NCBI GenBank assembly: GCA_025617745.1
Contig: CM046857.1
Coordinates: 24,273,761 to 24,337,760 of the forward strand
From: Heliocidaris erythrogramma
Lineage: Eukaryota > Echinodermata > Echinoidea > Camarodonta > Echinometridae
DNA: 64,000 bases
Reading direction: 5' to 3'
Shown: piece by piece, positions 1,561-63,544 of the stretch
Layout of the letters: the number at the start of each line of letters is the position of its first letter
Numbering within the stretch: position 1 is the stretch's first letter
The notes under the pieces: generated by a model
Told to the model about the DNA's origin: nothing
The model's database searches: none
Seen by the model: the letters and a program-made list of their open reading frames with translations, nothing else
Translations under genes and position numbers: made by a program

Positions 1561-1574
1561 TCGCTCCCCGGAGG

Positions 1575-6335: not shown

Positions 6336-7259
6336 GTGGTAGATGGACGGGTGCTTGGTCTGCCAAAACCAATGACCACTCACAGTGGTTTCAAGTTGAT
6401 CTGCTAACTGACTATAAGCTCGAAGGCATTGTGATCCAAGGTAGGTCAGATTATGACCAGTGGGTGACGAGTTTCAGCCTTCAGTACAGACCAGATGGAA
6501 AAGCAGCCTTGATAGATGTAGTGGACGACAATGGTGCCATTGTGGTAAGTGACTTCTACCTTGACTCTTCAACTTTTCATGTTCCTAACTAAGCTGAAGT
6601 TGGGATTAGTTACTAGTCGGAATGGTCTCTGAAAAACAAAAATTTGTGTTCTCTATGAAATTACAATGATTTTTTGTGTAATAGCGATGTTATGTAGGTA
6701 CCAAAAGTAATTTTTACAAACGTTTTGTTGGTGTTGGTAAGTTGGTAAGTTGCTTAGCACATTACTGTACATGCTCAAGGGTTGTAGGTTAGGACGATGC
6801 ACATTTGCGAATAAAATTTCTGATTGTTCCATGGCAGGCTATGCGTGTGTGTGTGTGTGTGTGTTTGTAGACATGTACGTGGATATATTGCAAAGAAACT
6901 TAATTGACACCATGGTTTAAGAATCAACATCCGGGACTAAGTAGTATTTTGGATGGTACGTTGAACACACCAGCATTTTATTAACATAAAGAAGTAAAAC
7001 CTTGCTAATGGTAGGGTGAAGGAGTATCGTTTCCATTTCATTATAAAGTTTCCAATTATCCAAGATTTCATAAATCTGAGGAGCCTACTCTTTACTATGT
7101 TCCATCATCAGATCTTCTCAGGGAATAGTGATAGGGACAGTCCAGTGATCAACATGCTAGCTCTGCCTGTCACAGCTCGTTATGTTCGTATCAATCCGGA
7201 AAATTGGAATGGTCACATCAGTATGCGTTTTGAGCTGATTGGAGAAGGACCTATCAATG
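6336..7259 (+). CDS. Copy A, domain 3 (second and third exons only)
   Basis: Exon 6336-6544 carries the GAWSAKTNDHSQWFQVDL core and ends at GTG|gtaagt. Exon 7112-7259 carries the ARYVRI...HISMRFEL end. The acceptor of the first (TTTTTCTGTGAAG) has a weak pyrimidine tract but is shared with copy B. The expected N-terminal exon, equivalent to 49824-49949, is absent from the window. Confidence 0.8.
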
Positions 7260-40944: not shown

Positions 40945-40996
40945 ATGGCGATACGAAAGTTAGTATTAGCGGTTGTCCTGGTCAAGATGATGATTG
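40945..40996 (+). CDS. Signal-peptide exon
   Basis: ATG in a good context (A at -3, G at +4) encodes MAIRKLVLAVVLVKMMI and splices in phase 1 at ATTG|gtaagc. With exon 2 starting at 44176 the next residues are AASLQAQLGMED, giving a basic start, a hydrophobic core (interrupted by one lysine) and a small-residue cleavage region. A possible acceptor (ATATTTCAG, ending 40936) just upstream suggests a 5' UTR intron. Confidence 0.65.
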
Positions 40997-43900
40997 GTAA
41001 GCTATTCTTTATCCAACAACATAAACAATACGAAATAAAACAAAGAACAATTATATTACCCCGAATGACCAAAAATCGGTCGGTTTGAAATTGGTGCGAA
41101 GTCGGTTTGGCGGTGTGACTTAGGTATCGGTACTTGCAATGGGAAACCAATCAAATGTGAATCAAATGGATTCCGAACCACCTCCTTCAATATATTCTGT
41201 TACCACGCTAGCTTATTCATTTCATTTTCAACTCGAGGAACAACAGACTTACTCTGATTTGGTTCTAGACCTATGATCCGAACGGATCAGCATACATTTA
41301 AAGGGGAATGAAAGGCAACAAACATTATCCTATAATCATGTAGGTAATTGGCAGCCTATTACAATTATTTTTTTTAATTATTCCTATTTGATTATTGAAG
41401 AATAGTGTCTCAAAGTTAGTTTCCTTCCTAGAAATTATCCCGTGGGAGCCATTTGTGAGATATTTGTGAGATACCCACTGACCTGAACACTAGCTGCAAT
41501 GACACTCATGATTACATGTGGAATGCATGACACTGGGTTTTCTCTAGTTGTACGAGCTCCTTGGCTTATCAAGCTGGTACTGGCCTGCGGAGCTGTACAT
41601 GGGGTGCATATACTGTTTGTGGAGGGAGATATTAACAAAAATCTAGATCTAAATATCACCATTTCCCACATGCTGTGAGTCATGCAAACCACCCTCAGTT
41701 TGCTAAAGGGGTTACCTTCCAGGATCAACTAAGATTGAATGAATAAAAAAAAAAACGCAAATCGGCAGGTGTGATCAGGGTTTTTTTTTACCTTGCACAT
41801 GTAACTTGTATATATGGGACTTCACATGTAAGGTAAGATTTGTGTAGTCCCATAATTATATACAATGTGGGGGTTTTTTCTCTTTTTTTTTTAAATTCAA
41901 TTTTACAATCTTAATTGATCCTGGAAGGTAATCCCTTTAGCAAACTCCGAGTGTGGTTTGCATGGCTCACAGTATGTGGGAAATGGTGATATTTAGATCT
42001 AGATTTTTTTTGTATATCTCCCTCCACACACAGTATATGCATCCCATGTACAGCTCCGTAGGCCAGTACCAGAGTGATAAGCCAAGGAGCTCTCACAGCT
42101 AGGTTTTCTCAAACTATTCTTTGTAGTTTTTTGTAGTCATGTACATTCAAATGAAGATACTTTTATCCTGTCATATAACCTATAATGTGGCAGATATTTG
42201 GTTTTAGCCGTTTCTTTTGTTAAGCAGGATTTGGCATGCACAAGTTGTTGCTAGGTCAAACAAAGGTTTGTCAATTCAAAGAAGTGACAAAAACCTACTA
42301 CTGCTCTATCACCTGTGCGAGACAATGGGGGTACGTACTAGATGGCTGCCATTTTGCATTGGTGGCTATAGTTGTACAATAGCTAGTCAGTGTGCAACAT
42401 CACATCCATTGTGTACAAGTAAATGGACATGTACCACTATGACATCAGTTTTTCAAAATGCCAGCCCCCAAGAGATATCTAGCAAGGAATTTCCAAACTT
42501 TAGAGATATTTCTTCCAAATAGTATTTTCAAGATTGAACAGGCTGACAATTTTCCAGAGTCATGATTATCGGCTAATAATTGGTGGGTTTCATTCTCCTT
42601 CAAAGAAACCTGATTAAATCAATATATCTTGTCAGTACAAAACAGGTCTACGTGAATATGAAATGCTACAAGGTGACTCTACTTCAACCCATGTAAAAAC
42701 ACAGAAGCCTTGATTTTTTTTTAAAACATCAAAATTCCAGCTGTTTTGACGGGACATGTATGAAAATTAAAGTAATTTTGTGACTTCAAACAGATATAAA
42801 CGGAATATCATTTGTTTCTTTATAATAAAGCCGTAAAGCCGATCGGCAATTTATCTTCCTAAGACAGACCATTTCTATATGTTGAATCTCCTTTTTTGTT
42901 TTGTTTGTTTGCTTTTTGTTCGTTTCGGGGTTTTTTTTTGTCATACTATGAAAATTGGAGTGTTACCAAACTCGTTTACACTTCCGGCTTTCAATTCAAT
43001 GGCGTAGAGGGCAAGGGGGATATAGACTGAAGGAAACCCCTCCGAACGGGGGAATAAATTTGATACATGAAGGATTTGCAGACAATAGGATGCTCTAAAC
43101 TCTCTACAGACGGTTGTAGAACGAACTGTCTAATGTCAAAGGGACATTGCACGGTCACGTTCATTTGTCCTCGTTCCAACGCGCGATTAACTTTCAACCA
43201 ATTACATTCTCTATGCAAATTGACCAATTAGAGACTGATCGTGTGCCCATTAATGGGGGCCACACTGGGGCCACGTCAGTACGCTATACTCGGCCAGCTC
43301 TCGCTCTTTGCGGATCGGAGATAAGAGATGATCGATGTACGTATACAAATCACCAACCATGGACATCTCATCGAGCATGGAGCAAGTCTCATTGATCACT
43401 CGTTGGACTGTTGGATATGACTATTTCCGTCCTGCAGGCCTATTTATAATAAAGACAGTCCAATATCTATGGTTTAAACGATGGCTTTACTCGCGAGTGT
43501 AAGACTAGTGCAAACAAGGAGTTTTGTGTTTGAAGCTCCTTGGTGCAAGTTTGCTTGTTTGAAATATTAAACCGTAATTGCAGTCAGACCCAACTCCGGA
43601 ATATCGAGCACAGGTATATACTCCGAAAACGGCGTATAGAACAAGATGAATAAGGATCCCTCATCGTTCAGTGCGAGGCAGTGCTTACAAAAGGCATGGG
43701 GAAAATCGCGCAGTGTCGACCTGCTGTAGATAATATATTATTCGAAAATAATGCTGCTGATATATTTATTTCAAATGTTTGTCATTTGAAAGTCATTTCA
43801 TATGACGAATCATTCAAGTATTTTGAAGATAATTGACACGCAGCATTATTTTTAAGGATATGTATATCGTTGCCAAGTTGACTTTGCAAGATTTTCCACA

Positions 43901-46900
43901 TGCCTTTTGTACACATTGTCCCTTACTGAACGATGAGGGCTCTATACTTTTTTCGGACTATATACCTGTGCTCTGTTTTCCAAAGTTGGGTCTGACTGAT
44001 AAAGTACTACCCGTGAAGATTGAGAAGCGGTGATACCGTGATAGGATTGGGGGTTGTGTGTCTTATCTGTCCGGTTAACCAAACTGTCCTATTTTTTTTG
44101 TCCTATTTGTTCAGTTCTCCTTGGTATAAATACTACTTAGTACTTACGCCATTTAATTATCTTTCAATCTTTAAGCCGCATCATTACAGGCACAGTTGGG
44201 GATGGAAGATGGCCGCCTCACGGACGCACAGATCACAGCTAGTAGCTGTTATGATGGTAATCACTGCACGGACAGAGCCAGGCTAAACCAACCGCAAAGT
44301 AAGAAAACGAGGATGGTTTCATTTGGGATGATGAACATGGAGTAAAAAGAGAACCTGCGATAATTTTCGCTACCTCAAATATGCAATTTTCGACGAAGAG
44401 GGCAATACTATGCATGGAAATGGTCCGCATCGTCAACTTCACTTCCGGTCCGTATTGAAATACTACGGCTTATGAATAAAATAAGTGCTAAAATGCTTAA
44501 TTTTTTGATCGCATGACATACACCACTCAAATTTTGAAAATGCAACCAATTGTCTCAATAAATCATGGTATCTTTTCAAACATGTCGGTTAATTTATACT
44601 CAAACTCGAGGATTTTTGTAATGCCTGTGTACATTTTCAATGCAAAAAAAAAACAAATACTTGTCGACCGAATCGGGATATTGTCAGCACTGCGTGGTTT
44701 GCATTACAAACGCCATCTGTTGGCGAAATTGCGTATTTGGGGTAACGAGAATTGCAAAAATTTAGAGCAAATTCACTGAACACGAGAGAGAGAGATGGAG
44801 AAAGAAATGATGTGACTTTATAAGCTGAACCATGTATACATTTACTAGCTGTCTTTATGATAACTTTTCTTAACTTTGAACTGCCTTTTTGTTACTTATT
44901 TGAGAAAAATACTGATGACAGAAGAGCAAATAAATTAGAAAGCCCGGTATTTATAGAAGCATACTAATGTTAGGCCCGTTAGGCCGTGTTTAATTGGACA
45001 AAGTAAGTCCACTCACGTTCATCCTGTAGGAAAATGTCAAGAATTATAACAGATCGAAATGAAGAGGGGGAAAATCATGTCAAGATATCAATTTCTCATT
45101 TTAATTGTATAAATAATGGATTGATGAATTTGTTGCTCGTATTAAATTTGTTAAGGTGGTGTTAAGACGGGAGCATGGAGTGCAAGAAGTAATAACCAGG
45201 AGCAGTACATCCAAGTTGACCTGAGGCAGTTGCATGAAGTCACTGGGGTCATGACCCAAGGTCGCAATGGACACAGCCAATGGGTGACGACATTCAAGCT
45301 GCTTTACAGCCTGGATGGGCTGACATGGACTACTGCAGAGAATGCCATGATGGCTGGCAGTGATGTGAGTTTAAAACCTTTATTAGTAGTATAATAATAT
45401 GGGGCACATGCCCCCAGTACTTCGGGAATGTATGCAAATCTTATGCATATCTTATGCATACCTTTCAAACAAAGTTTGTTCTTGACAACCTGAAAGCTTG
45501 CCGGACATAGCTACAAATAGTGTATGCAAACTAGATTCCAAGCATTGAGGCTCATTTATAAAAAGCAGGTTCATGGAATAGCTCGTCACTAGGTGCTCAT
45601 AGGTGCATAAATTTGTATACATTACAGAAGCGGTCTATTGAATGCCAGAATGAAAATTAAAGTAAATGAAAAAAAAATCACACCGAACAATCAAAGTTTA
45701 ACAGTGGTTGACTTTAAGTGTCTTATATAATATGTTGTACATTTTAAAGTCCCTGAAGATGAGCGTGAATACCAACTGCTTTCCCCCAGATCTTCAATGG
45801 CAATACGGACCGGGACACCATCGTGACGAATGACTTTTCCACCAACATTGTAGCGCGGTTTATCAGGATTGAACCAGTGTCGTGGGCAAACCATATCAGC
45901 ATGAGATTTGAACTCCTTGGCAGCGTTACATCAAGTAGGTTCATTGGTTGTTAATAAAATTATTGGCTTTTGAAAAGAACATGTTGACAAAGTCAGTTCA
46001 AAAGATGGTGGGATGCAAAGTTATATGGGTGGCCGCAATTGGATGGAACACGATACAGTATACATGTACAATGTATTTCCATTCACATGATTTCACAAAT
46101 TGGGGAAAAAAAGATTTGATACTTTGAAAATTACATTCTATGAAAATAATTTTACTTTAAAGGCAAACTTTATATAAGGAAAACTATTCTATCCTTAAGT
46201 CATGATAAGATAATGCTTTAACATAAAGGTGGCGATATCTGTAGTTGTGGATAATCCAGGTGAAGAATAATTGATCCAGATTCACACCATATTATGTCAC
46301 ATTGTATAGTATATTTTTTTTCTCTACTCTACCCAAGAGAGAAATATGGACCCATCAGCATGCACACAAATCTGTGTAGTGACTTGAATCATTACATTAA
46401 TAATGCCAGAGTATATATCATAATTTATTTTCTCCTTTCCCCCTACAGAGATTGAAGGCCCCCAGAAAGATCTCGGTATGAAAAATGGCCAAATTCCAGA
46501 CAGTGCTATCACAGCCTCATCTGAGTATGATGCTAACCATGGAGCAGAACGATCTCGTCTAGACACTGTTGCTAGTAAGTTGTGTTTTATGCAGACAACA
46601 AAAGTTTTTGAATTTTACCTTTGATCTGAAGAAGTACTCGCCTTTTAAAAATAGCTTGTCCATACCCATAATGGTGTTCTGTGAATTTTCTAACGGGTAA
46701 ATGGTAGGATCGAAAGGGGTATGGTCAGCTCACACCAATCGACGGTGGTAGCTATATGAGTACTGTCGGTTCAGAAGCAATGCATTTTACTCTTTTGATT
46801 TATTACAGATGGTTAGAAAGGGCGGTGGTTAGTCCATACAAATAAATGGTATAATACTCGTGTAACTACATGTAGGCTACCATGTTTCTAGGAAAACAGC

Positions 46901-49900
46901 ATGATACCAACAGTCTCCCGTGATTTTACAACGGTTAAGGTAGAAAAGGGGTGTGGTGAGCTCATACCTTAAAGGGAGCGACAAGTCGCAATCAGTGGGC
47001 GGTTTTACAGTTGGCTGCTCCTTTCTCTGGATCAAAGCTCAAAGCGACTTCAATTTATCGCGCACAGCTAATAAAAGTTCGCACATTGACCCAAATTTGA
47101 GTAAACAAGATCGCTCGTTCTTTGTTCCAGTATTTGAATCTCATTGGTCGGTTACGTATGTAGGGATTCGAGTTAACGATCACGCGAGGAATTCGGCAAT
47201 AACATTCCTTCGGTAGCGCACGATTGGACCCGATTGTATCCGAATTTCCCCGAGTCAGGTCAACTGGTCAGGCCCATGGATTACGACTTGCTACTCCCTT
47301 TAATGCCTTTAATACTCCTGTAGTTGTCATGGTTGTATGACAGTCGGTGGTGGTTGAAGCGCATGGTCATCTTATGAACATTGAGCAATGCTATTACCGG
47401 TAATCCTTTACAATAACAGGTGGAGGTAGAAAGGGTGCGTGGTCAGCACGCACAAATAATGCCAACCAGTGGTTGCAGGTGGACCTGAACAGCTTCTACA
47501 TTATAACCGGAGTCATCACGCAGGGTCGACAGGATATCAACCAGTGGGTAACAGCCTTCAAAGTAGCCTACAGTGATGATGGAATCAACTGGAACACCAT
47601 TCAGGATTGCAGTGGAAATGATAAGGTATAGTTACTCGCTCTGCTGATAAGCAAGACTGGAATAAATTACCATGGTTTAATGGTCATAATTTTTTTTTTT
47701 TTTTTAAACTGGTATAAGTTGTTTGAGTGCTTTTACTACAATAATATTTCAAGAGGAACCAAACATTGTGAACCCTTTTTTCGTCAATAGGCTTTCACCG
47801 GAAACACGGATCGCAATAGCAAGGTGACAACAGTGTTTACTCGGCCAATCACTGGCCGTTTCCTACGCATTCACCCCACCGCTTGGAATGGTCACATCAG
47901 TATGAGACTTGAGATTCTTGGAAAGGGAGCCGTGGCCAGTAAGTTAGAATTGACACCTTTTAAAATCATAGACAAAACCCCTCATGATAGTTTTATAATC
48001 TGTTTTGGAAATATGTTATGTATGCATTTTTTCTTTATCTCTTTTTTCTTCAAACATATTTTACAAACTAATAACAACATAACAACAAATATTAATGCGT
48101 TTTCAAGTAAAGTGTTTGAGTATCTGAATATAAAAACGACCCAAGTCCATGGCAGGTCATTTCGAGTAAACTAAAACACTTTATATTTTTTATTTGTCCA
48201 ATAACATGATTATATTTGACTATGATGGTAAGGAAACATCGTAAATACAGGTTTAACCCATATACTATGGGAACCGGGTTGCTCCTGTATTAAGCCTATG
48301 AGAGTTAAAAGAATTCAGTAGTCAAAGGGTTAAATGTTCATTGTTATCATTACGTTCACGTTACTTGTGGGGTTTAAAAAAAAAATCATATACAGAGTAA
48401 GCTACTCTAGTAGGGTTCTAAAAAGAATTCATAATAGTTATTTTTTCAGCTTTTAATCAGTATGGCTTACAAATCTGTGTGCCGTAGGTTGCTTATACTA
48501 CGGCACAATGGTCCCTCGTCACCTAGCATGTTAATTTATGGGATTGTGTGTGTGTGTTAAATGAGGACACTATGTGTCTTGCATCCGAAAATCACACACA
48601 CAAACACACCCTCTCTCTCTCTCTAACACACACACCCACACAGGTTTACATGGCTTTACTTCCGAGGACAACTATTGTTCCTCTATTGTTACTCGTCCTC
48701 GGACAGTCGACGGAATAAGGCATAAATTCATTGTTCGACGTTCGAGGACTATTGTCCGGCTTCCGAGGACCATTGTTATGATTTTTTTTTTGTTCTCTGT
48801 CCGAAAATGTCCTCGGACATAATGCTAAACAAACGCACACACACACACACACACACGAGTCAACATTATCTTTTTACTCTTGCATGTACACGTACTACTG
48901 CACCATATGCAAACTACATGTATGACCAGCAATGGTAAAAATCATTTCCTTTGCAATCAGCACTGCAGCACTTGTTTTACTCAAATTCAAAACATACTTT
49001 AATGACTCCATGCGCACTGAAAACATGAACCATACCAGATGATGGCCCCAATACTTCTGTATTATTCACAATATTGCATTTGAGGAGTGCTCTGTTGGTA
49101 CTGAATCAGGTCTAATAAGGTTAGACAAGGAGTGATGAGAGGGCGCTATGACATGAATGTAAAACTGACCCAAGTCTTGGACTTGGGCCATCCTTTACAA
49201 AAGATAGGAAATACTATTTTACGAAAAAAAGGGAAACAAAAAAAGAGGCATCAGTTTACTTATTCCAAGGAGAGTTGAAACCCATATAAATATGTGAATC
49301 TATGCAGTGCCCAAAATGGTACTGAATTTTATTTGATGATGCGCGACTTTGAGAAACGTGCATGTTTTATCCAAGAAATGTATTTCAAAGTTCCAGTGCC
49401 CGTGGGCTTCTATTTTGTTTATGTGATAAATACGGAATTTCACTTAAACTACTGAAAGGTTCCAGTAAAAAAACGGCTCATCTGGGTTATATTTATGACA
49501 ATGGTGTGGATTACTGTTAAATGTTATCTTGGGATATTTATACAAACTCAACATAATCTGAAATTATGGTATACTGAATTTTCAAGACTACAAATGGTGA
49601 TAGCTGCCAAACATATTTGGTATAAAAGGTATAAGAGAAGAATAATGACATCTAGTTGTCTATCCCGACCCCCTCGCATCACCATGTGGGAAAATGAGTT
49701 AATATTATGATTTTGTTTTTGATATGCTGGTCCAAATAACCCACCTGTTTCATTCTCAATAATTATCTTTAATGTTATTTCCGTGTCCCCATTGTTGCTA
49801 CTATTGATACGATTTACCATCAGGTCATCGGTTTGAGCCACTGAAACTTGGAATGGAAGATGGTCGAATCGCAGACAGCCAACTCTCTTCAAGCACATGT

Positions 49901-52900
49901 TATGATTCGAATCACTGTGTTGACAGGGCAAGACTCAACCAAGTAGCAGGTATGTACAAACATAATGAAGATGTCATGTTTTAGGTTCATGTTTGTTTAT
50001 CGATTAAAAGATATTCCTTATGAAAAATGTCACAATTCTACAAAGACTTGGGGTATTTCCAGAAATTTAGATATCAAAGTTCTGGGAAAATACCTCCCAC
50101 TTTTTCTTTAATAAGGCCTGATACATGTACTTGTATGTTGGTTTAGTTCCAGAAGTCACAATTTCAGTGATTACCCTTTTGGGATTGTTGGTTGTGCTAA
50201 GGAACTAATGTAAAGATTTGTTATTACTTCGCCTCCCAAAGGTGGTGACAAAGCACTGACCTCTACCACCTGGACGGATCATCGCCCATTCCCGCGCGTG
50301 CGAGCACTTGAAGTGGGCGCGGCCATGTTACTCATCCCAGAGCCGTGTGGTTTATTACACGTTACGCACTGAACATCTGTAGTTGTCTGCGCGTTTTGAC
50401 CATGGGCGTCCGCATGGGCGTCCGCATGATTGTTGACAAATCTGTATTCCAGCTTTCTCGCGCGTTGATTTTTCAGAAGTGCAACATGGCGGACCACGAC
50501 TTCACTTCTCTGAGCCAATGAAACGTCCAGGTGGTAGAGGTCAGTGTGACAAAGGTATTATGTTTCGGGTTGGCCGTCCGTCCGTCCCACTTTCTTGTAC
50601 AGGAGATATCTCAAATACCATTTGAGTGAACTTCAAACCCGTTATTATGTATAGTCATGGGAAGACATCTCTTTTTATTTTGGGTAACTAAGGTGAAAGG
50701 TTAACGGTCACAGATAAATTTCTGAAATTACAGGTTTTAGCCTCGTTAATGGGATATCTCGATAACCATTTGAGGTATTTCGGTGTGCGTAGGTCACAGG
50801 TCAATTACCATGAAATATCGGGTTTTAGCCTAATTGCAATATCTCTTGAGCCATTAACTTCAAACTTAATACTAGTATGCATCACCATATTGAGACGAAC
50901 TGTTTAGATTTGTTTGTTGGTCAAATGGCAAAGTTCATAGAGGTCAATATGCATGCACTATGCATGCACTTTTGGTTTCTTAGGTCAAAGGTAAAAGAGG
51001 TCAATTAACATGTAATAAGCTTTTTTGTGGTTATCACAATGTTTCAAGAACAGTTGAGTCATGAACTTAACTAAATTTAGGCGGAGGCATATAGGAGACG
51101 CAGTCGCATTCATCTTATGAATTGGAGAAAATACAATATGCTACTATGAATTATTTATCTACCTGTTCTCATGTTCAGTCGTCAAATATACTGAGGTACT
51201 GAGGGCTCCAGTTGAAATTATGGATTCTCTGAAGTGACTGGCATAACATTTATGTAGGGTGCAGCTCCAAAGAATACAGTAACTATGTCAGTCACCAAAA
51301 AATCCTTAATTTCAACTAGTGCCTCGAAAAAAATATGGTGCATTTGATTTATATCCTACTAGAGTAAGCCTAGATATATTCAAAATAAAAAATAAATGTA
51401 GAATCAGTAGAGAGGCTCGTCAGTCACGCACAAACATTATCGCAGTCTATATTGTCGTGATATATCGAATCGAGAATATCCAGAATAAAAAAGTGACTAT
51501 CTGTATAGCGAAAAATATACGGAGGTCTTACGTCACGCGATATCCTTTTTTCATTCATGGTGAAAGTATTTAATGCCACGTGAGATATTCTTGGCCAATC
51601 ATTGCCCGATTTTATGATGGAGGATACAAAGTATATCGGATCCCTTCTCACATTGCCAAACCCGATCTTTAGGGTAGATTTCTCCCCACCAGACTAAGCT
51701 TAAAAGGCTTTTCTTTGTTCTAAAATTTGGAAAGTTTTAAACTTCCTATAGCACAGTAAGGTTAATTGTTGAATACCATTTTTCTGTGAAGGTGGTGGAA
51801 GGACAGGTGCTTGGTCTGCCCAAACCAATGACCACTCACAGTGGTTTCAAGTTGATCTGCTAACTGACTATAAGCTCGAAGGCATTGTGATCCAAGGTAG
51901 GTCAGATTATGACCAGTGGGTGACGAGTTTCAGCCTTCAGTACAGACCAGATGGACAAGCAGCCTTGATAGATGTAGTGGACGATAATGGAGCCATTGTG
52001 GTAAGCGATTTCTACCTTGACCCTTCAACTTTTCATGTTTCTAACTAGGCTAAAGTTGGGATTAGTTACTAGTCGGAATGGTCTCTGAAAAAATAAATTA
52101 TTTGTGTCCTCTGTGAAATTTTGTCAAATAGCAATGATTTTTTTTTTATGTAAACATTTATAGCAAGGTTATGTAGGTACCACAACTAAACTTTTAAAAA
52201 CTTTTGTTAGTACTAGTTGGTAAGTTGCTTAGCACGTTACTATACATGCTCAAGGGTTGTAGGTTGGGACAATGCACATTTGCGGATTAAATTTCTAATT
52301 GTTCCATGTGTGTGACCATGGTTTAAGAATCAACATCCGGGACTTAGTAGTATTTTGGATGGCACGTTGAACACACCAGCATTTTATCAACATAAAGAAG
52401 TAAAACCTTGCTAATGGTAGAGTGAAGGAGTATCGTTTCAATTTCATTATCAAATTTCCAATTATCCAAGATCTCGTAAATCTGAGGATAGCTTAACATA
52501 CTCTATTATATGTTTCATCATCAGATCTTCCCAGGCAATACTGATAGGGACAGTCCAGTGATCAACATGCTAGCTCTGCCTGTTACAGCTCGTTATGTTC
52601 GTATCCATCCGGAAAATTGGAATGGTCACATCAGTATGCGTTTTGAGCTGCTTGGAGAAGGACCCATCAATGGTAAGGTCATACCCGGAGGCATTCCAAG
52701 TAACTGTATATCTTGAGGTTAATGCAGATATGGTTTTCTTTAAAATTCATGATGGAAATGGACAAATCTCACCTTCGAATAAATAGGCAACCTTCCATGC
52801 TCATCAAAGGAAAAATGAACACCAAAATTAAGTATGAAAGTCTTTTGTTAGCATTTTAATTGTTTTAATATCTTGCTGTAAGCCTTTTTAAAGCTCGTTA

Positions 52901-55900
52901 TCAATGTACTCCTGTGTAAAATCTAAAATATTGAGACCAACTCATAATTAAAAGATCAGAATAACACTGACAACACAACCAGTTAAAGGGAAATTAACCT
53001 CAGCGTATGAATTAGCTTATTTTGAATGGTGTAGTATATGCCTCTTATTTGATACATGCAATTTCATGTAAAAACACAGGATAAAGATATAAATCACTAT
53101 TTTCCAGCCAAGTTATCGTCTGCTAGCAATAATAAGGGGCTGCCATTACTTTATGTGTACACGAACATATTTTTCATCCCAAGTAAAATTTCCTTCATCG
53201 TTAACTTGTAATTGATTTTTAGAGGACAAATATATATTAGATAAAGTCACATATTCTGAAATGTAAGTTTAGTTTTATATATTTTTTAAAAGGTCTTAAT
53301 TTGTTCATAAAAAATATACTTCATAAAAAATATACGTCAAGGACGGAGAATTGACGTCAAGGACGGAGACAATCGTAACAATACCAAAACAAAGCGAGGA
53401 ATCTGCTTTACAGGATGGCTATTAGAACTCATGGGTCGTCAATTATCTAGGCCCATGGCCAATAATAATCGTAATACAATCAGAACAAAGCGACGTATCT
53501 GTTGTAAAGGTAGGCTATTATCAATGCATATGGTACCTAATGATCCGTGTCATGCACAAAATGGCAGCCTCCATGGAAAGACGTAGCAGACAATAGGTGC
53601 ATCTAGAATATCACGTGGGGTTACTTGTCCTTTAAGGAAAATGCAATTTGAATTAAATTAGGAGTGAGGTCATGCTATTTCTAAATTTAGTTTCTTTTGA
53701 TTGCCTCTCATAGTTGTTCCCATCCCTGGAAAGCTGGGTATAGAAGATGGTCGCATAGCTACTACTAGTCTCTCTGCTTCATCTTGCTGGGATGTCAATC
53801 ATTGTGTTGCTCGCTCCAGACTCAACCAGCCTCAAGTGGGAGCTCTTCGGGGAGCCTGGTCTGCTTTAGTAAGTATATAACTGCATCCTAATTTCGCCAC
53901 AATTGTTCAAGATTGCATAACTAATACCCTCAGCCAAAATATTGCAGTGCGTAATCTTCATAATTACTCTTCGAAATGTTAATTGCTTTCCTCTGTATTG
54001 AATTTTGTCCGCACACATGCATCCAAGAAGATATTCTGTGGAAAGTCCCAACTAAATAACAGTAATGGTAAAAGCATAGCATATTACAATGTATTGATCG
54101 CATTTCCTTTCTTCCCAAACTGCTCATAAAGACTGTTTCACAGGTGAAGAATGATTATATTACATAAACATCATCAGCACTATACTAGTGCTGTCCACTT
54201 TTGCACTCACTATGATCCCCTCTCTTCCACAGACTAATGATTTAAACCAATGGATACAAGTTGACCTTCGTGCTGCATTTGAGGTAACAGGGATCCTCAC
54301 ACAAGGCAGGAACAGCCACGACCAGTGGGTCAGGTCTTATCAGGTTTCCTATAGCATTGATGGGAAGGACTGGACCTTGGTGAGAGACTGCCAGACAGGA
54401 ACAAAGGTGAGACTAAAACGTCATTCAGATGAGCAAACTATCAACATTTTGTATGCCTGTTTTCTGGTGTTCTGTACTTCAGCTGTTCCACCATGAAACT
54501 ATAAAGTTCTGTGAACTGTATATCTCCCCATATTTATATCTTATGTGATTTCACGTACATTTATAGATCTTTCCCGTCAATGCAAATGCCCCTATTTATA
54601 TTTTATTCTGTGATTTTATATTACAGATCTTTCCAGGCAATGCTGATCGCGACAGTCTTGTTGAAAATGCCATCAACCCACCTGTGACAGCTAGGTTCTT
54701 CCGTCTTCATCCCTTAACTTGGAATAACCATATTAGTCTGAGATGGGAACTAACTGGCGAGGGTCCTTTCACATGTAAGCGATTTAATGACCCCTCACAT
54801 GTTTTGGGGTTGGACTTAAATATAGCTTCTTGTGATAATGCTGTGATTGATATTAATCTGAATTGTAGTTGCAAGCTCATGCAACCTGATGCATGGAAGA
54901 AATCTGCACCCAACCCAGCAAAGTATGAGATGGACTTGAGGTCTGTTGGCCTCGCACCCTGCTGTATATCTGCATCATATCAACAAAACTTACATATTTG
55001 CGTTTCTGTTCCGTTTTTGAAGCAATATTCACTTTTATGTCTTGTTTGGATTTATCGTTTTATGATTTTGGGGTAATGGTTTTATTACCTATTCTGATAT
55101 AACTATTTAAATTTTTATCCTTAATTGTAAACTTACTGTCATTATTTGCTGTGAATATATCGGTCGGAGGAGGTAAGAGGGATGGTTCTTATTGACTTAC
55201 AGCGACTGAAAGCAGTATATTTCGAGAATTACTCCTTGGTCATGAATGCAAACGCTTTAGACCAACATTACAACATCCGCTAATCAATGCTGTGTTACAG
55301 TGTCTGGATTCAGTATGTATTCATGTCCTTTTAAATATTGAGAATGAAAATAAAATTGAATTCAACTGCATAATGAACATGTTGTAAAGCATTTACCGTC
55401 AAGTCACTCAAATTTGTCTGTATCCTGCAGTGACAAGTGCTTCTCAAAAGCTTGGACTTGAGGACTACCGCATCCCGGACAGTGCCATGACGGCTTCCTC
55501 ACAATGGGATTCAAACCATGGACCACGACGAGCTCGCTTGAACCTTCCACTGTCGGGTGCCCTCAAAGGAGCCTGGTCTGCACTCACCCTAGACCATAGC
55601 CAGTGGCTACAGATAGACCTGAGAGGCACCTATCGGGTTACAGGAATAATCACACAAGGACGCGCTGCTGCCGACCAGTGGGTGACCAGTTATAAGGTGA
55701 CTCATAGCTTGAATGGACAAGACTTCACCACCGTGCTGTCTCCTGGCTCGCAGCAAGACAAGGTATATTTCATTATAAAAAAATTACTGTTATAACAAAC
55801 TCGTAATAAGATGATTTAACTGGTTCCACTTTGTATTTCAATAGGGTGGTCTTTTTTTAGCCCTCATATAACAAGGTTTCAATCCCATTAAACATAATTT

Positions 55901-58900
55901 TGATGTTATATCAATCAATAGTTTTGCCATATTTTAATTACTGTAATATACGTTTGGGTAACTCTGCGATTGTTCATTTGAACCGAATATTTGTTTTACA
56001 GAAGCGTGCAGTCAGAGCTATTACCAATTCTCCCCCACGACCAAGTACACAGCCATTATTTAGAAAACTAAATTTACTGTTTGTACATAATATCAACAAA
56101 TATCAAACTGCAAATTTTATGTTTTCATTTGTTCGAAATTCACTTCCATTTTATAACCATTTATTTGTAAAAAATGAATTTCTAAATAAATAAAATACTA
56201 GACAGTCCGAAAACTTTCATTTACCAAATGGACCCACCCTTTGGAATAGCTTACCGAGGGCACTTAAATCTTGCCCTTCCCTTAACTCTTTTAAACGTAA
56301 TTTGTTTTTAAGATGCCGTTTTTTTATGCCTCCTCCCACCGTAGGTGGTGCCGGAGGCATGATTTTTTCGGGTTGTCCGTCCGTCCGTCCGTCCCTTTTC
56401 GTTCTCGTTCTCGCGATAACTTCAAAACTGTTTTGGGGATCATTTTGTAACTTGGCCCATGTATGCATATGTGAGGGACGATTAGATTTTGGGTTCTCAA
56501 GGTCAAAGGTCATAGAGGTCATTATATACATAAAAATTGTTCGTGATGTATGGAGTCTAGGTCTACCCATTTTAGAAATTTCAAGGGGACAGTGGTCTAT
56601 TTGCTATAAAATCTATTTCCTTGGTGTATTTGATGATTGTAAGTCATCAATGGTAAGTTTTATTATTTGAAAATGAAATTAATTTTCTGTCTCCTGTTCT
56701 TTTTAAGTCAAAAGATTTGTAATTTTGTTGGACCAATCCTTTTTAGAGTGTACATGTATGCCATACATTTCCAATCTGGTGATGGCGGAGGCATAATTTT
56801 TTTTTGTATTATCTTTTATTTTTTAGTAAACGAGGAAGCTTGACTGGGGAGGAATTTTTAATTTGTAAACAAATCTTTCGGCATATTATACTCCCAGTGT
56901 TAAAGATCGTATGCTCGATCTGTAATGAAAAACACAAGTCAGAAAAAATTGGAACCAGCGGGATTCGAACCTGTCATCTACTGCCTGCCAGGCAGCGACT
57001 TAACCACCAGGCTATTCTGGTTCACTTATATTTTTTGTTTGGGATTAGCCCGTCATCGGCCTATGGCCTTTGCAAGTCCCGCACATTTGTATTCTTAGTC
57101 GAGTTTACAGGCATAAAATACAATGTATTTACGTATGTTATTTTGTCTTGTTTTTTATGCAAATGTGAAATAAATGAATTGAATTAAATTCAGTATAAAG
57201 AGGTAATTTCACTCGTCTGAATGAGTTTCCCACTGAGAGCTGGACTTTGCTATAATGACCACATATTTTGTCCTCTTTGAAACATATTTAACCCTTAATG
57301 TAATGGGTTATTTCAAGTTCCCCTCTGACTTGGAGGGAGGGGGCTTCGAGGCCCCAGCCCCCTGATCCCGGCCGCGACATGACCAGACCTAGAATTGCGT
57401 ATAGATTATTTTATGTAAAAATTTCTCTTTTTCGTTTCATATAATTTATTGCAAATATATACATTTCTATTGACAATCAAGTGGAAAATAAAATTTTAAT
57501 GCAAGTCGTTCTTTCTAAACCTTAAAATTATTACATAAGAATACATTTTGAAAATGATTTTTTTTTTATTATTGTTTTACAAATTTATTTCTGTTTTTCA
57601 ATTTAGATTTTTTTATTTTAATTTTTTTCTAATCTGCAGTTAGAATAGATATTTACAGCTCAAGGAAAAAAATTATAGGTGATATAGGAGGAACATGAGG
57701 AAATGAACTTTCCCATTCGTTTTGTACATAAATCCTTCGTTTTCGGCCTAACATGAGGTCATAAAAGGTCACGCGACTCTGTAACAGTATGACCGATTTT
57801 TGTCAACTTGGTGGCAAAAGATGCGCAAGACATTAAAAGAGAAAAATCTGAAAGTTGCGTGATGTGAGATGTAGCAGTTCAAAATGAGCGGCGATTTTTT
57901 TTTTCTAGAGGGGGGGGGGGGGGCAGCGAGGCCCCCCCCCCCCCCAAGTACAGTCAGCGCTAAAGAGAACCTGAATCTACTGACCTTTTCCAATGTGTAT
58001 AAATTTTTGTCTCCCTTTGATGTTTTTTCAACTCCAGTTAGATCGTATTAATATCTCATATTAGACAGTTCAGACAATCTGTATCACAAATGATGTTATC
58101 TAAAGCAGTTATTAAAGCTACCGTATCAGGAAAACCATCCCCAGACTACCCCCCCCCCCCCCCCCCCCAACGCCTCCGTATGGCTATGTGCAGTGAGATG
58201 TCACTGATTGGGGAGATGTTCCTTGTTTTGAGAAGGCATTTTGATCAGCTATGATCAGCTCGAGTCACAATAAATCTAAATAGTCCAATGTGTATAATTA
58301 TCTTTAATTGGCGTGGTAGCAACGATGGGATACACAATCAAAAGGACTGGTTGCTCATTATACATACTACCTTGTTTAATATCAACCGTCCTTTTATTGG
58401 GGGCCATTTATTATTATTTTTTGGGGGGAGGGGTGTCCAAAGGAAGGTAGAATCCTTGGTGACCGTTATGTCTCGGGGCACACAGTCCTGAGATCATGTT
58501 TTGGCAATAGGTTAATTGACCGTACCGCTCAATTTTATGTTTCTATAGGTCTTCAGTGGAAACAATGACAGATCTACCCAGGTAACTCACTACTTTGCCC
58601 CACTGCTGACCACTCGTTTTGTCCGAGTTCTTCCCTCTATGTGGCATGGACACATCAGCATGCGTTTGGAACTCCTCGGAGCTGGACCTGTAGCAGGTGA
58701 GGGACGAAAGGTTCTACGAAACATGCTCCAGCGACAATTGATCCACGGTCATTTTTTGCACTAACCAATCTCCTAACTTCCGCTCTAATAATAAATTAAC
58801 ATTAACACTTCCCTTACGCTACATTTAAGAAATAAAAACCCAAAATGAAAACCTGACCTTAAACATTGACTTCACATGAAACTGAGTCACAACAATAACC

Positions 58901-61900
58901 CTAACCCTATGTCTTTGACAAAATATAACATAGCATGTGTTGCTGGATCATGTGTTGGATTACCAGAACTAAATGATTTTAACGCGTTTGTTTTATACAC
59001 CACTCATCAGGGCAAAATGGGACACAAGACTATATTTTACAGACAATTGCAAGTTAATCCATCTGACTGTATCAATCCTTCTTTCGTTATGTTTCTTGTA
59101 TATTTTCATTCTTTCTGCCAACAGCCATCTTGAATGACCCTGTTCCGCTTGGACTTGAGAGTGGAGTCATCCCTGATTCAAGTCTGACGGCTTCCAGTGA
59201 GTGGAATGCTGACCATGGACCAAAGAGAGCTCGTCTCAATCTAGCCAGAGTAGGCAACCTGCGAGGAGCCTGGTCGGCACAAGCAAATAATGTCAACCAG
59301 TGGATACAAGTAAGAATGGATTTTAAGTGGTCATTCAGACATGCAGAATCAAGGTTTTGGTAGGTTTTGGCAGAGGGGGTATTAGTAAGAAACTTGTTTA
59401 ATATTTATAGTAGCATGTTCTTGTGTACTCATTTGGTATTCCAAACATTTTTTCCGGTGAATTCTAGTGTAAATATACCTAAGGAACGCTAGATCACGTG
59501 AATATACTGCCCTACGCCAGGACCTTCTCCCCGCACAACAATCTTCTGGTTTGGCATGGAAATTTGTGTGTCACTCTGTGTAGGATACACACCTTCATCA
59601 TAGTAGTGTATAGTGTATATTGGAAGCTGCCGTTCCCTGGCCCGGAGTCTAAATTATTTTTTGCCTCATTTGTTTAGTATTCTACTTTGGGAGGCGAAAT
59701 CTTTCCAGTTTCTTAGTATTGCTAATATGTTTATTAACAAAAATAAAAAAAATCTGCCATAGTTTGTAAGCGCTTACCAAAACTGAATTACATTTTTAAG
59801 ATTGTCATTTCGGAGTTTCTTCTTGCTCTTCTTTAAAGACAAAGATTAGGGAGTCCTTGGGAGATATGTGCACAGCTACCAAAAGCAGGGTGAATAGGAC
59901 ACATATGTGACTGGAAACTTAAGATTTAGAAAATGCATAATTTCCTTTCCCAGGGATGATGCACACCCTACTCTTGGTTCTCAGTCATGATTAATGAAAT
60001 AAATGGAAATGGTCTGCATCACTCCCTGTGAAAAATGGAGTCAAAACACGCTTTTTTCGTGTTTCCCCCCCTATTCACCTACAAGTGGCCATTTTATTTT
60101 AGTTCTCTACAAAATGTTGATTTTATGACATATCTTAATAAACCTTCAGAGCTTTCATCCTTTTTGTATGTAAATACAACACTTGTATCATTTAGCAAGA
60201 TATTAAACGGGAACGAAAGGCAACAACATTAGCCTATAATAATGTTGATAATTGTACAAATGTATTGAAATTAATCATATTTGATTATTGAAGAACACTG
60301 TCTCAATGAGTTGCAGTTTCCTTGCTAGACATTATCGCATGGGGGCTGCCATAGAGCAGTTCTATTAGTGAGCTACCCACTGACCGTACCTGTACACTAG
60401 CTACAATTACACTATGATCACCTTTGGAATGCATGACCTGTATTTCTGTAAACCATTTTTGTAGTCATGTACATTCACATGGAGATACTTTTATCCTGTC
60501 ATATGTTTTGTGTCGAAATATCTGTTTCAGCTCTTTTGTTAAGCAGAATTCGGTATGCACAAGTTGTTGCTTGGTCAGACAAAGGTTTGTTAATTCTTCA
60601 AAGAAGTGACAAAACCTATACAACTGCTCTTAGATATCACATGTGCGAGACAATGGGGTACCAAGATGGCTGCCATTTTGCAAGGGGTGGCTTTAGTTGT
60701 ACAATAGCTATTCATTATGCAACATCTTATCTATTGTGTAAAATGGACATGTACTTCTGTGACATCAGTTTATCAAAATGGCAGCCCCCATAGGATATTA
60801 ATCCAGCAAGGAATCTGCAAACTTTTGTGAGATCGTTCTCCTTAACGGAGTAATCAAATCGGGGTATTTTCAAGATATTTTGAACAGGCTGGCAATTTTC
60901 CGCATGATTGAGTGTTCAATTTTTTTTTAAATATAGATGACCTCCCTTGTAAAAAAAATACTGCAAAGTAATGCAGTAGTACTGCAGTACTTGGGTCCAA
61001 TTTACAACAGTACTTGCAATATTTTTGAGGTACTTGCAATACTCCTAGTACTTTTGCAGTACATACTGAGGTAGTATTGCAGTAGTGTAGAAACTTTGAG
61101 GTATTTGCATAGTACTCGTGATACTCCTGCAGTACATTGCAGTACTTGTGGTACTGTTGCAGTACATTTGCAGTAGTAATATATGCATTATTACTGCACT
61201 ACTTGCAGTAGTACTGCAGTACAGGTACTGCAGTACTTGGGTCCAATTTAATACAGTACTACTGCAGTAATTGCAGTACTTTTTCACAAGGGCTAAGAAT
61301 GGGACTTTCCTTAGTCCTGTATGTGTACGGAAAATTTACAATTGAAATATTTTCCATGGAGCAGTTGAGCCTAATAGCCAAGAACAGTGATACTCGGTTA
61401 ATACCCGTAATATCTGTGAAAGAGTGTTGTATTTTAGTTGGAAAATATTAGAAGTTAAACATTTAGGTACAATGCTGATGGTTTGAAAAATTTGCCACCA
61501 GAATGAATGTCGGTTGGTTAATAGGATGGTCCTAACGTATTCCTCATTTGATCTTTCTTTTTCCAAGGTGGACCTTTTGAACCCTTACCGCATCATTGCT
61601 GTGGCAACTCAAGGCCGTGAGGATGTTAGTCAATGGGTAACAAGCTACAAGATTGCTTGCAGCAATGATGGTGTGACCTTTGATACTGTTCAGGGCATAT
61701 GTACCAACGCTGGAGCTGACAGGGTAAGTTACATTGAGATAAAAATTATGTTTAACACGTTTCAATGTTAATAGCAGTATCTGCTTTTTGGGGTTATCCA
61801 TTTCTCTTTCAAAGATTTGAACCAACTTTGGGTCAACAGTAATTTTAGTATAAGGTGTACCACAAGAGGCAATTACTTTTTTGTTCAATTCAATGACAAT

Positions 61901-63544
61901 GTACAGGTTTTAAAACAACGGAGGTGTCATTATGCAGATGACATGGCCTTCATATGTAACTGGATCCTCTTTGAATTATTCAAAAAAGTTGATTTATATT
62001 TCTTTTTTCATTAAAGGTTTTCACAGGCAATGCTGACCGCAACACTATTGTGACCAACACTCTGCCTGTGCCAGAGGTTTGCCGCTATGTCCGTCTACTA
62101 CCCGCAAGCTGGAGTAGCCACATCAGCCTTCGTATGGAGCTGTACGGAGAAGGCCCTCTCACAGGTTAGTTTTTTAGTCGTGATCGATCATTTTCCGCAG
62201 TGATATTTTCTTCAGGTTTCATTTTGTCAAATGCTTACTGCTTGACTTGCGATTGGGTTTCAGATGAGGTATATGATTACGATTACAGATTTAAAGGGCA
62301 ATCCAACCTTAGTAATACGATGATTTGTGTGTAAGCAGCAAAATAATAAGAAATAATAAGAAAAAATAGGATGGTGGAAGTTTGAAATAAATCAGACAAG
62401 AAGATAGAAAAATTATGGATGGTTAAAAAATGAGATCACTAAATCTATGCAAATCTCAAATTTGCAATTTGGTGAGTGGATTGTGACGTTTTGTCTGTCA
62501 ACTCTCCTGCTTGTCATACACAATATCATTAATTTGCTGTTTCTCCTAAGCGCCTTTTCCCCCGGGGCAGTACTCATAATGTATTGTAGAAAGCATATTG
62601 TTATTAGGATCCTACGGACTGATACATTTTTGTGTGTTAAAGCAAATGGGGAAGTTATCCGCAACCACATCAGTTACATTATAGATTCGGCCAATTTTGA
62701 AATTCCATATGTATAGTGATTTAAGAAACTTTCCAAAATTGTTGTATTCCTTGTCCGATTTCGTTCGAACTTTCACCAATCTGCTTCTGTTATTTTTTAA
62801 ATCTTTCTTTCAGAGCAACTTGCCATTATATAGGGCGGCATTTCCCTTTAATATAGTAGGTCCAGGAATAAAGTTATGTTATCGTGTGCCACAAAAATCT
62901 CTGAAGCTGGTATCCTGTCAACATTTATTAAGAACCTTCTGGCGCAATGCTGATAATAGCCAGATTCAAACAATCTTTGGAGGCAGTCTATCACTTACAC
63001 TACCTTTTTATTTTATGTCAGTCTGATCCCAAAACAAGTATGCCTTAAAAATAGGGTAGTATCAACAAGGTATTTGCTATGGTGATTCAATGTCCAGAAT
63101 ATTATTGCCATAGGAAAGGGATGGGGATTGTCCTGGGATGTAGATGTGCCATCTGGAAATAGGGTAGTGGTCGGGGGTGTTGTGTTATTTGCCTCAACGA
63201 TAGAGGAAGATGTCCATGGGCAATCATATCAACCCAGGTTGATAACTTACTGGATGGATGGTAAAGGCGTGGTTGTCGGGGTGATTTTCGACAGGGATTA
63301 ATTGTCGGAGGGGCTGGGGATAGCTTTAGGGTTAGTTATCTTGATCCAGACGTACATATTTGTGTTACTACTGCAAGAGTAAGACATCTGTTTTCAATCC
63401 AGGCGGTTTTTGGTCAGTATGTCCTTCAATATGTAGGTCATTTGGATGTCACTATCTAAAGATCATTTAGTTTGTCTCCTGCCCCATCTAGGCAATACAT
63501 GTATTTAATCTCTATTTAACTATCCTCTTTATTTTGCAGTGTGA
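40945..63544 (+). CDS. Secreted protein of six tandem F5/8 type C (discoidin) domains
   Basis: Nineteen coding exons: 40945-40996, 44176-44298, 45156-45364, 45790-45934, 46449-46574, 47420-47625, 47791-47938, 49824-49949, 51792-52000, 52525-52672, 53714-53868, 54233-54406, 54627-54774, 55431-55762, 58549-58696, 59125-59309, 61568-61723, 62017-62164, 63540-63544. They sum to 2943 nt with consistent phases: 980 residues plus stop. Architecture is a signal peptide and six F5/8C domains of about 157 residues, with no EGF, transmembrane or kinase part. F5/8C domains bind glycans or membrane lipids, so an extracellular lectin- or adhesion-like role is the natural inference; the ligand is unknown. 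Each domain shows LGxExGxI, GAWSA, QWxQVDL, QGR, QWVTSY and HIS-R-EL-G blocks. Start choice: Kozak CAAGATGG and a signal sequence. The first exon and its link to exon 2 are the least certain part. Confidence 0.85.
41302..42601. mobile_element. TTAA family 2 element with nested foldback
   Basis: Left end AGGGGAATGAAAGGCAACA after TTAA (41298); right end TTTCATTCTCCTTC near 42600 with a degenerate TTAA. Homologous to 60207-60841 once the foldback at 41545-42101 is removed. Lies in the first intron of the discoidin gene. Confidence 0.75.
41545..42101. mobile_element. Foldback element with 9-bp duplication (Mutator-like)
   Basis: Arms of about 190 bp run inward from TAGTTGTACGAGCTCCTTGG and its near-complement ending GGAGCTCTCACAGCTA. 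Both flanks carry GGTTTTCTC (41536-41544 and 42102-42110). A 9-bp duplication with long inverted repeats is typical of Mutator-like elements. No transposase inside. Confidence 0.8.
42602..43580. other. Intron sequence, nothing recognised
   Basis: Part of the first intron. A T-rich stretch near 42890-42945; otherwise unique-looking, no exon in phase with the flanking exons was found. Confidence 0.45.
43581..43998. mobile_element. Foldback MITE
   Basis: Ends CAGTCAGACCCAACT and AGTTGGGTCTGACTG; imperfect inverted arms of about 140 bp (GAGCACAGGTATATA near 43609 against TATATACCTGTGCTC near 43960). Target duplication not identified. Confidence 0.75.
44176..45934 (+). CDS. Domain 1 exons
   Basis: Exons 44176-44298, 45156-45364 and 45790-45934. 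Contains LGMEDGRLTDAQITASSCYD, a C-x5-C pair (CYDGNHC), GAWSARSNNQEQYIQVDL, VTGVMTQGR and FIRIEP...HISMRFELLG. The acceptor at 44176 (TATCTTTCAATCTTTAAG) is preferred over the AG at 44189 because only it keeps phase with the signal exon and gives a first exon of the usual length (123 against 126 nt). Confidence 0.85.
46449..47938 (+). CDS. Domain 2 exons
   Basis: Exons 46449-46574, 47420-47625 and 47791-47938. Begins KDLGMKNGQIPDSAITASSE; YDANHG replaces the paired-cysteine loop. The middle exon has GAWSARTNNANQWLQVDL. Its upstream intron contains several degraded look-alikes of the exon start and a TTAA element. Confidence 0.9.
46695..47419 (+). repeat. Degenerate tandem copies of an intron-exon junction
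   Basis: The start of exon 47420 (GGTAGAAAGGGTGCGTGGTC) has decayed look-alikes near 46706, 46812, 46938 and 47348, in intervals of roughly 105-130 bp once the TTAA element is removed. Some are preceded by a matching acceptor-like stretch (TTTATTACAG at about 46800). Confidence 0.6.
46973..47299. mobile_element. TTAA family 4 MITE
   Basis: 327 bp, ends AGGGAGCGACAAGTCGCAATC-like (first 20: AGGGAGCGACAAGTCGCAAT) and ATTACGACTTGCTACTCCCT, between TTAA at 46969 and 47300. No coding sequence. Confidence 0.85.
48544..48860. repeat. CA/GT and CT simple repeats around a CGAGGAC motif block
   Basis: GT run near 48544-48557, CA and CT runs at 48592-48642 and CA run at 48835-48856. Between them CGAGGAC...ATTGT and its complement recur about four times. 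Intronic. Confidence 0.7.
49824..52672 (+). CDS. Domain 3 exons
   Basis: Exons 49824-49949, 51792-52000 and 52525-52672. Begins LKLGMEDGRIADSQLSSSTC with a C-x5-C pair (CYDSNHC). The duplication boundary (51419) lies in the intron between the first and second exons, so only the last two have counterparts in copy A. A hAT-like MITE is in that intron. Confidence 0.9.
50254..50546. mobile_element. hAT-like MITE
   Basis: 293 bp with 23-bp perfect inverted ends beginning CACTGACCTCTACCACCTGG, flanked by the 8-bp duplication TGACAAAG (50246-50253 and 50547-50554). It is inserted in a dispersed GTCCGTCC-type repeat. No transposase. Confidence 0.9.
50560..51090. repeat. Dispersed GTCCGTCC / GGCGGAGGCAT repeat
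   Basis: GGCCGTCCGTCCGTCC near 50573, GTTCATAGAGGTCAA near 50932 and GGCGGAGGCAT near 51081. A related stretch is at 56330-56560 and a fragment near 5130. Family not named. Confidence 0.6.
52987..53631. mobile_element. TTAA family 3 element, copy B only
   Basis: Ends AGGGAAATTAACC and GGTTACTTGTCCT between TTAA at 52983 and 53632; near-identical to 32885-33500. Copy A reads through near 8005-8026 without it, although a few bases there also differ. Confidence 0.85.
53714..54774 (+). CDS. Domain 4 exons
   Basis: Exons 53714-53868, 54233-54406 and 54627-54774. LGIEDGRIATTSLSASSCW with C-x5-C; the first internal intron is after GAWSAL in phase 0. The intron before it carries a TTAA family 3 insertion absent from copy A. 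Confidence 0.9.
55431..58696 (+). CDS. Domain 5 exons
   Basis: Exons 55431-55762 and 58549-58696. The first is 332 nt because the internal intron found in other domains is missing. Core is GAWSALTLDHSQWLQIDL. The intron between holds a LINE fragment insertion (about 55891-57195). Confidence 0.9.
55900..56312 (+). pseudogene. Non-LTR reverse transcriptase C-terminal remnant
   Basis: Starts LYQSIVLPYFNYCNIRLGNS and includes LQKRAVRAITNSPPRPSTQP, the post-catalytic region common to Jockey/CR1/I-type LINEs. A stop at 56193 breaks it; a downstream stretch (GPTLWNSLPRALKS near 56230-56275) is the usual C-terminal block in a shifted position. Not functional. Confidence 0.7.
56952..57023 (-). repeat. 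tRNA-like sequence
   Basis: On the minus strand a perfect 7-bp acceptor stem (GAACCAG...CTGGTTC), D-arm AGCCTGGTGGTTAAGTCGC and B box GGTTCGAATCC. The anticodon arm is irregular (a 5-nt loop if CTGCC pairs with GGCAG) and the T-stem has mismatches, so it is more likely a SINE head than a working tRNA. Confidence 0.5.
57909..57946. repeat. Adjacent G and C runs, hairpin-forming
   Basis: About 14 G, a short CAGCGAGG spacer, then about 14 C. Copy A has only the G run here (about 12347-12357). Intronic. Confidence 0.85.
59125..62164 (+). CDS. Domain 6 exons
   Basis: Exons 59125-59309, 61568-61723 and 62017-62164. LGLESGVIPDSSLTASSEW start, first internal intron after NQWIQ in phase 0, last exon with CRYVRLLPASW and HISLRMELYGEG. 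The first intron holds a TTAA family 2 element and a TACTGCAG-rich insertion. Confidence 0.9.
60207..60841. mobile_element. TTAA family 2 element (copy B intron)
   Basis: Left end ACGGGAACGAAAGGCAAC after TTAA (60203), right end GATCGTTCTCC before TTAA (60842). Same element as 14750-15350 in copy A. Confidence 0.75.
60944..61292. mobile_element. TACTGCAG-rich insertion, copy B only
   Basis: 349 bp with ends CCCTTGTAAAAAAAATACTG and CAGTACTTTTTCACAAGGG. The interior is almost entirely variants of TACTGCAGTACTTG. Copy A reads GACCTAAGAAT without it (around 15466), and CT is repeated on both sides, suggesting a 2-bp duplication. Confidence 0.8.
63540..63544 (+). CDS. Terminal coding exon (stop)
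   Basis: TTATTTTGCAG then TG TGA; the product ends GEGPLTV. Identical in copy A. Confidence 0.75.

Follow-up and report, generated by a model that had tools for sequence, protein, structure and literature searches.

Gene organization of the locus

The window, a 64,000-nucleotide stretch of the sea urchin Heliocidaris erythrogramma genome (assembly GCA_025617745.1, contig CM046857.1, hereafter C5; C5:24273761-24337760), contains gene B, which encodes a six-discoidin protein and is the probable ortholog of sea urchin Nectin, together with the 3′ half of its tandem paralog, gene A. The A+B pair recurs in inverted orientation on C5 at ~23.98-24.07 Mb, 0.2-0.35 Mb off, giving four gene copies on this contig: A, B, and a mirror of each. 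The assembly searched comprises 1.06 Gb in 26 contigs.

Rebuilding gene B from its splice sites yielded 19 exons on the + strand at window positions 40945-63544, joined into a coding sequence of 2943 nt (981 codons, stop included). All 18 introns carry GT-AG boundaries, with phases in register throughout, confirming the in-frame chain of 19 exons and 981 codons proposed by a first-pass annotation of this DNA. The exons are as follows.

Gene B exon 1: 40945..40996, + strand, start codon and predicted signal peptide (MAIRKLVLAVVLVKMMI), donor phase 1; kept in all four C5 copies
Gene B exon 2: 44176..44298, + strand, first part of domain I; CYDGNHC pair Cys42/48
Gene B exon 3: 45156..45364, + strand, middle of domain I
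Gene B exon 4: 45790..45934, + strand, end of domain I
Gene B exon 5: 46449..46574, + strand, first part of domain II; LDT at residues 214-216
Gene B exon 6: 47420..47625, + strand, middle of domain II
Gene B exon 7: 47791..47938, + strand, end of domain II
Gene B exon 8: 49824..49949, + strand, first part of domain III; Cys362/368
Gene B exon 9: 51792..52000, + strand, middle of domain III
Gene B exon 10: 52525..52672, + strand, end of domain III
Gene B exon 11: 53714..53868, + strand, first part of domain IV; Cys522/528
Gene B exon 12: 54233..54406, + strand, middle of domain IV; Cys602, equivalent to Cys605, the proposed dimer cysteine of Nectin
Gene B exon 13: 54627..54774, + strand, end of domain IV
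Gene B exon 14: 55431..55762, + strand, first and middle parts of domain V within a single exon
Gene B exon 15: 58549..58696, + strand, end of domain V
Gene B exon 16: 59125..59309, + strand, first part of domain VI
Gene B exon 17: 61568..61723, + strand, middle of domain VI; Cys909 and Cys923
Gene B exon 18: 62017..62164, + strand, end of domain VI; Cys952; in-frame TAG right behind the donor
Gene B exon 19: 63540..63544, + strand, completes the last Val codon, followed by the stop TGA

The exon 2 acceptor at 44176 fits the phase of exon 1 and places the first cysteine one residue from its published Nectin position, while acceptors 44190 and 44196 were rejected as incompatible in phase with exon 1. 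At the other end, exon 19 contributes two coding bases and the stop; because unspliced exon 18 reads straight into TAG, an 18- or a 19-exon ending alters only the last residue (Gly or Val).

Mapping recovers the full set of 19 exons in each of the four C5 copies, at the same lengths and with AG/GT at the introns (partial cross-matches linking exons 7 and 10, six in number, were set aside), and a chance chain of open reading frames was rejected on these equal lengths and shared splice sites. Each copy is open for 980 residues, and the ratio of nonsynonymous to synonymous substitution rates (dN/dS) is 0.41-0.45 in five of the six pairs of copies and 0.663 in the sixth; a pseudogene was rejected on the open frames and the five lower ratios.

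The domains of gene B are bounded by phase-1 introns. The first intra-domain intron is in phase 1 and precedes GAWSA in domains I-III, lies further on and in phase 0 in domains IV and VI, and is absent from domain V.

Domain architecture of the gene B protein

The 980-residue product of gene B is composed of a signal peptide, predicted from hydropathy only, and six F5/8C (discoidin) domains. A Pfam search, which the first-pass annotation had suggested as a check, matched F5_F8_type_C (PF00754) in six stretches with a whole-protein E of 1.6e-195 and a score of 639.6 bits against a cut-off of 28.2. Four further models matched at E ≤ 0.001 (F5_F8_type_C_2, Muskelin_N, DUF7402, and SANTA), each overlying the six repeats, and the five matches at this threshold include no model for EGF, Ig, or an enzyme. 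A hydropathy scan for a membrane span found none, the highest 19-residue mean past residue 30 being 1.28. The predicted series of signal peptide, six F5/8C domains, and stop, made only of discoidin repeats and free of EGF, membrane, or enzymatic parts, thus stands.

Five of the domains share an RLN motif in the form RARLN or RSRLN; in domain II it takes the form RSRLD, and the LDT of this domain is a variant of the same motif.

Correspondence with sea urchin Nectin

The Nectin of Paracentrotus lividus, with records Q70JA0, A0A182BBB6, and AJ578435, is described as a 984-residue protein with a signal peptide, six tandem discoidin domains, and an LDT motif in domain II (PMC10057474), with a mass of 108.3 kDa (PMC7037938). 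Its reported cysteines number 2,1,2,3,0,3 over domains I-VI, forming pairs 43-49, 363-369, 523-529, and 927-956 with Cys605 assigned to the dimer, and its domains are 47-55% identical to one another (PMC10057474).

The gene B protein agrees with this description feature by feature. Its 11 cysteines (42,48 in domain I; 282 in II; 362,368 in III; 522,528,602 in IV; none in V; 909,923,952 in VI) reproduce the counts 2,1,2,3,0,3 and match in position domain by domain, as do those of the gene B mirror. LDT occupies domain II, at residue 214 in all four C5 copies. The calculated precursor mass is 108,164 Da (108.2 kDa) against 108.3 kDa, and inter-domain identity is 45.2-54.7% against 47-55%. The protein differs in being four residues shorter (980 versus 984). 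The offset of the cysteine positions relative to Nectin rises only from +1 to +4, the latter equaling the gap in length, and this small, steady offset supports the choice of exon 1.

We estimate a probability of about 0.9 that gene B is the sea urchin Nectin gene, encoding a secreted protein of six F5/8C domains and nothing else; orthology rests on agreement with the published description of Nectin in length, mass, LDT, cysteine map, and architecture. The six-discoidin architecture is already known from Nectin, and the window gene is a new ortholog of a known protein, so the novelty implied by the first-pass annotation falls away. That annotation had also overlooked the proposed LDT/integrin link, the proposed dimer cysteine (Nectin Cys605, here Cys602), and the tandem paralog.

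Comparison with a six-domain paralog on contig C11

A second six-discoidin gene, on contig C11 at 46.022-46.058 Mb, provides an internal control. Its 17 domain exons follow the gene B order, 13 of them at equal length; its exon ends were picked among sites fitting the gene B phases, making the shared phases partly a product of construction, and the search covered the domain exons. Sites compatible with the intra-domain intron pattern of gene B are present. Each C11 domain is 68.5-78.0% identical to the same-numbered gene B domain and at most 51.4% identical to any other. A FastTree tree of 18 domains from A, B, and the C11 gene groups same-numbered domains with support of 0.99-1.00, indicating that the six-domain order is older than the C5/C11 duplication.

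The C11 paralog carries LDS where gene B has LDT, and its exons for domains I, III, and VI are shorter. The cysteine counts of the C11 gene are 2,0,2,5,0,2 (one of the five lying in the linker before domain V), compared with 2,1,2,3,0,3 in Nectin. With no LDT and another cysteine map, the C11 gene was rejected as a Nectin ortholog; its failure on both features shows that they discriminate and mark the C5 genes as Nectin. C11 holds more F5/8C exon clusters at ~23.3-23.9, 27.8, 31.1, and 46.3-46.6 Mb.

An undescribed secreted protein of six discoidin domains, such as a lectin of immunity, that resembles Nectin only in architecture is improbable as the product of gene B. The genome is rich in F5/8C stretches (scoring 150 of 339 candidates gave 153 matches), and with at least one other six-domain gene in existence, that on C11, architecture alone cannot name the gene; however, gene B agrees with Nectin in cysteine map, LDT, length, and mass, and the C11 gene departs from Nectin in both cysteine map and LDT. 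An immune link would not by itself argue against Nectin, since raised levels of Pl-nectin protein are reported for immune cells exposed to Vibrio (PMC8539316). Less probable still is a continuation of gene B past exon 18 into more domains outside the window: the exon 18 donor is in phase 1, as at inter-domain boundaries, but the unspliced exon meets TAG, the tiny stop exon is kept in all four copies, and published Nectin is described with six domains and 984 residues.

Several observations weigh against the identification of gene B as Nectin. A lysine interrupts the hydrophobic stretch of the predicted signal peptide. Gene A and its mirror hold an extra cysteine (Cys95, domain I) that is not in the published Nectin map. 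Gene B and its mirror, differing at 29 coding bases and 20 residues, give the dN/dS of 0.663, which is near relaxed and, at 29 differences, weak evidence either way.

Other discoidin and adhesion proteins

Among the best 60 of 68 sequence matches in the PDB, domains III-IV match factor V and neuropilin-2 at E ~1e-42 and lactadherin and retinoschisin at ~1e-25. The C domains of factors V and VIII and the b domains of neuropilins come nearest in sequence among these solved structures, followed by lactadherin and retinoschisin, and all have the F5/8C family in common with the gene B protein. In the clotting factors, neuropilins, lactadherin, and retinoschisin, F5/8C domains are joined to other parts or occur in one or two copies. 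The F5/8C domains of clotting factors and lactadherin are closed by a disulfide linking the domain ends; such an end-to-end disulfide is absent from the gene B protein, where none of the six repeats has a cysteine at both ends and domain V has no cysteine at all.

The sea star adhesion protein Sfp1, of 426 kDa, is described with discoidin (four), vWD, CTL, C8, and EGF domains (PMC7037938). It has discoidin domains in common with the gene B protein, and its vWD, C8, EGF, and CTL domains are not among the gene B Pfam matches. Sea star Arub-27 is reported to be 56.3% identical to Nectin (PMC7037938). Vertebrate nectins, which are Ig-type adhesion molecules, have the name alone in common with the gene B protein: no Ig model is among its Pfam matches, and the two are unrelated. 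Some papers contain passages that interpret Pl-nectin through the biology of this unrelated Ig-type namesake (PMC6763604, PMC8539316).

Tandem and inverted gene copies

Gene A lies upstream of gene B in tandem, spanning C5:24252923-24291512 when complete. Exons 1-8 are located upstream of the window at C5:24252923-24270939, and the 3′ half, within the window at 6336-17752, comprises ten domain exons and the terminal exon, with exon lengths and splice sites equal to those of gene B.

Gene A exon 9: 6336..6544, + strand, middle of domain III
Gene A exon 10: 7112..7259, + strand
Gene A exon 11: 8101..8255, + strand
Gene A exon 12: 8604..8777, + strand
Gene A exon 13: 9102..9249, + strand
Gene A exon 14: 9501..9832, + strand
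Gene A exon 15: 13047..13194, + strand
Gene A exon 16: 13614..13798, + strand
Gene A exon 17: 15751..15906, + strand
Gene A exon 18: 16292..16439, + strand
Gene A exon 19: 17748..17752, + strand, stop

Genes A and B have diverged by 88 coding bases and 51 residues, with a dN/dS of 0.445 over 980 codons. The genome holds at least two diverged, intact tandem genes of the putative Nectin type, a result less expected than the gene identity itself.

Only 5 of the 2940 coding bases (3 residues) distinguish gene A from its mirror, and the remaining three pairs among the C5 copies, other than the B pair given above, differ at 47, 48, and 52 residues. Of 103 variable coding sites across the four copies, 69 distinguish the two A copies from the two B copies, and no site unites a copy of A with one of B. 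This pattern indicates that, most likely, the tandem duplication came first and the inverted duplication later.

The inverted arms extend from 24243107 to at least 24355104 and from 24070930 to 23969761, measuring ~112 and ~101 kb and separated by a spacer of ~172 kb; the outer edge is loosely fixed, with ~0.7 kb examined past it on the forward arm. Most collinear blocks of the arms share 94-99% identity and also differ by insertions. The inverted A+B region is either a palindromic duplication of large size or a haplotype placed wrongly in the assembly.

The second of these, an assembly artifact that places two haplotypes on one scaffold and reduces the true locus from four Nectin genes to two, is a possibility to which we give a little under even odds. 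The few coding differences between mirrored genes (5 of 2940 for A, 29 for B) and the mostly 94-99% arm identity with its insertion differences are in its favor, and the divergence of the arms falls in the range of sea urchin heterozygosity. Against it, the arms have an inner edge (24243107 and 24070930, flanking the spacer), and ~7 kb beyond it on each side contain scattered repeats and no collinear match. The 20 residues separating gene B from its mirror also exceed the 8 and 13 reported for P. lividus variant pairs (PMC10057474).

Other sequence features accompany the genes. Retroelement sequence at window ~358-4273 lies inside intron 8 of gene A (RVT_1, E 9.7e-11, in the open reading frame 1766-2197), and this intron measures ~9.2 kb in gene A and 1.8 kb in gene B. 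A Pfam search of the open reading frames 3362-4273 and 55861-56190 returned no match at E ≤ 0.001. Between genes A and B, arrays of a 26-base unit occupy 26491-27412 (~35 copies) and 35021-35711 (~26 copies) on opposite strands, and a 7-base array, TCTCTTC, occupies 21671-22022 with ~50 copies. A 6.1 kb stretch occurs in three places at ~98.6% identity: at C5:24338901-24344978, downstream of the window (65141-71218 in window numbering), and twice in the inverted arm, in intron 7 of inverted B and intron 8 of inverted A. It is probably a recently active mobile element.

Proposed function

The functional steps proposed here follow what has been published for P. lividus Nectin. Nectin is described in the embryonic matrix and in skeleton signaling (PMC9231221) and in the tube-foot adhesive (PMC7037938, PMC10057474), and galactose and N-acetylglucosamine are given as ligands of its six discoidin domains (PMC7037938). 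By analogy, the gene B product would be exported to the extracellular matrix of the embryo and to the tube-foot adhesive, and would dimerize via Cys602, the odd cysteine in domain IV. LDT in domain II may be presented to an integrin, with the six domains gripping glycans (galactose, N-acetylglucosamine) at several points simultaneously. Such a multipoint hold would tie cells or adhesive material to a matrix rich in glycans. An immune role has also been suggested, as Pl-nectin is reported to bind TiO2 particles (PMC6763604) and to be up in Vibrio-exposed immune cells (PMC8539316).

The first-pass annotation had proposed a multivalent extracellular binder of glycans or lipids. The predicted secretion and the multivalent, all-discoidin make-up fit this proposal, as does an extracellular location, and glycan binding agrees with the Nectin literature; lipid binding is the part that finds no specific support.

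Gene copies and Nectin variants

Protein variants of Nectin have been argued to be possible products of RNA editing (PMC10057474). In the main text of that paper, "genome" and "allel" are absent and "duplicat" appears in one reference title only; its subject there is protein variants and not gene copies, whereas several open gene copies are present here. No Nectin gene cluster is reported in the titles or abstract openings found.

Whole Nectin genes of this assembly are 3 to 52 residues apart, and substitutions of every kind occur between copies, A/G changes accounting for only 24 of 88 between A and B and 9 of the 29 that separate B from its mirror. This spread and the mixed base changes would make gene copies or alleles a candidate alternative to RNA editing, and a simpler one. 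On these sequence comparisons we lean slightly toward the published Nectin variants being products of separate genes and alleles, with sea urchins keeping a tandem, perhaps inverted, cluster of complete Nectin genes.

The 19-exon model, the second full gene, the mirrored pair, and the C11 paralog together constitute a genomic frame for Nectin. The interest is modest and comes mostly from the cluster, which provides an explanation for the variants that can be tested against RNA editing. If this explanation is true, the sea urchin adhesive would be composed of several genomically fixed forms of Nectin.

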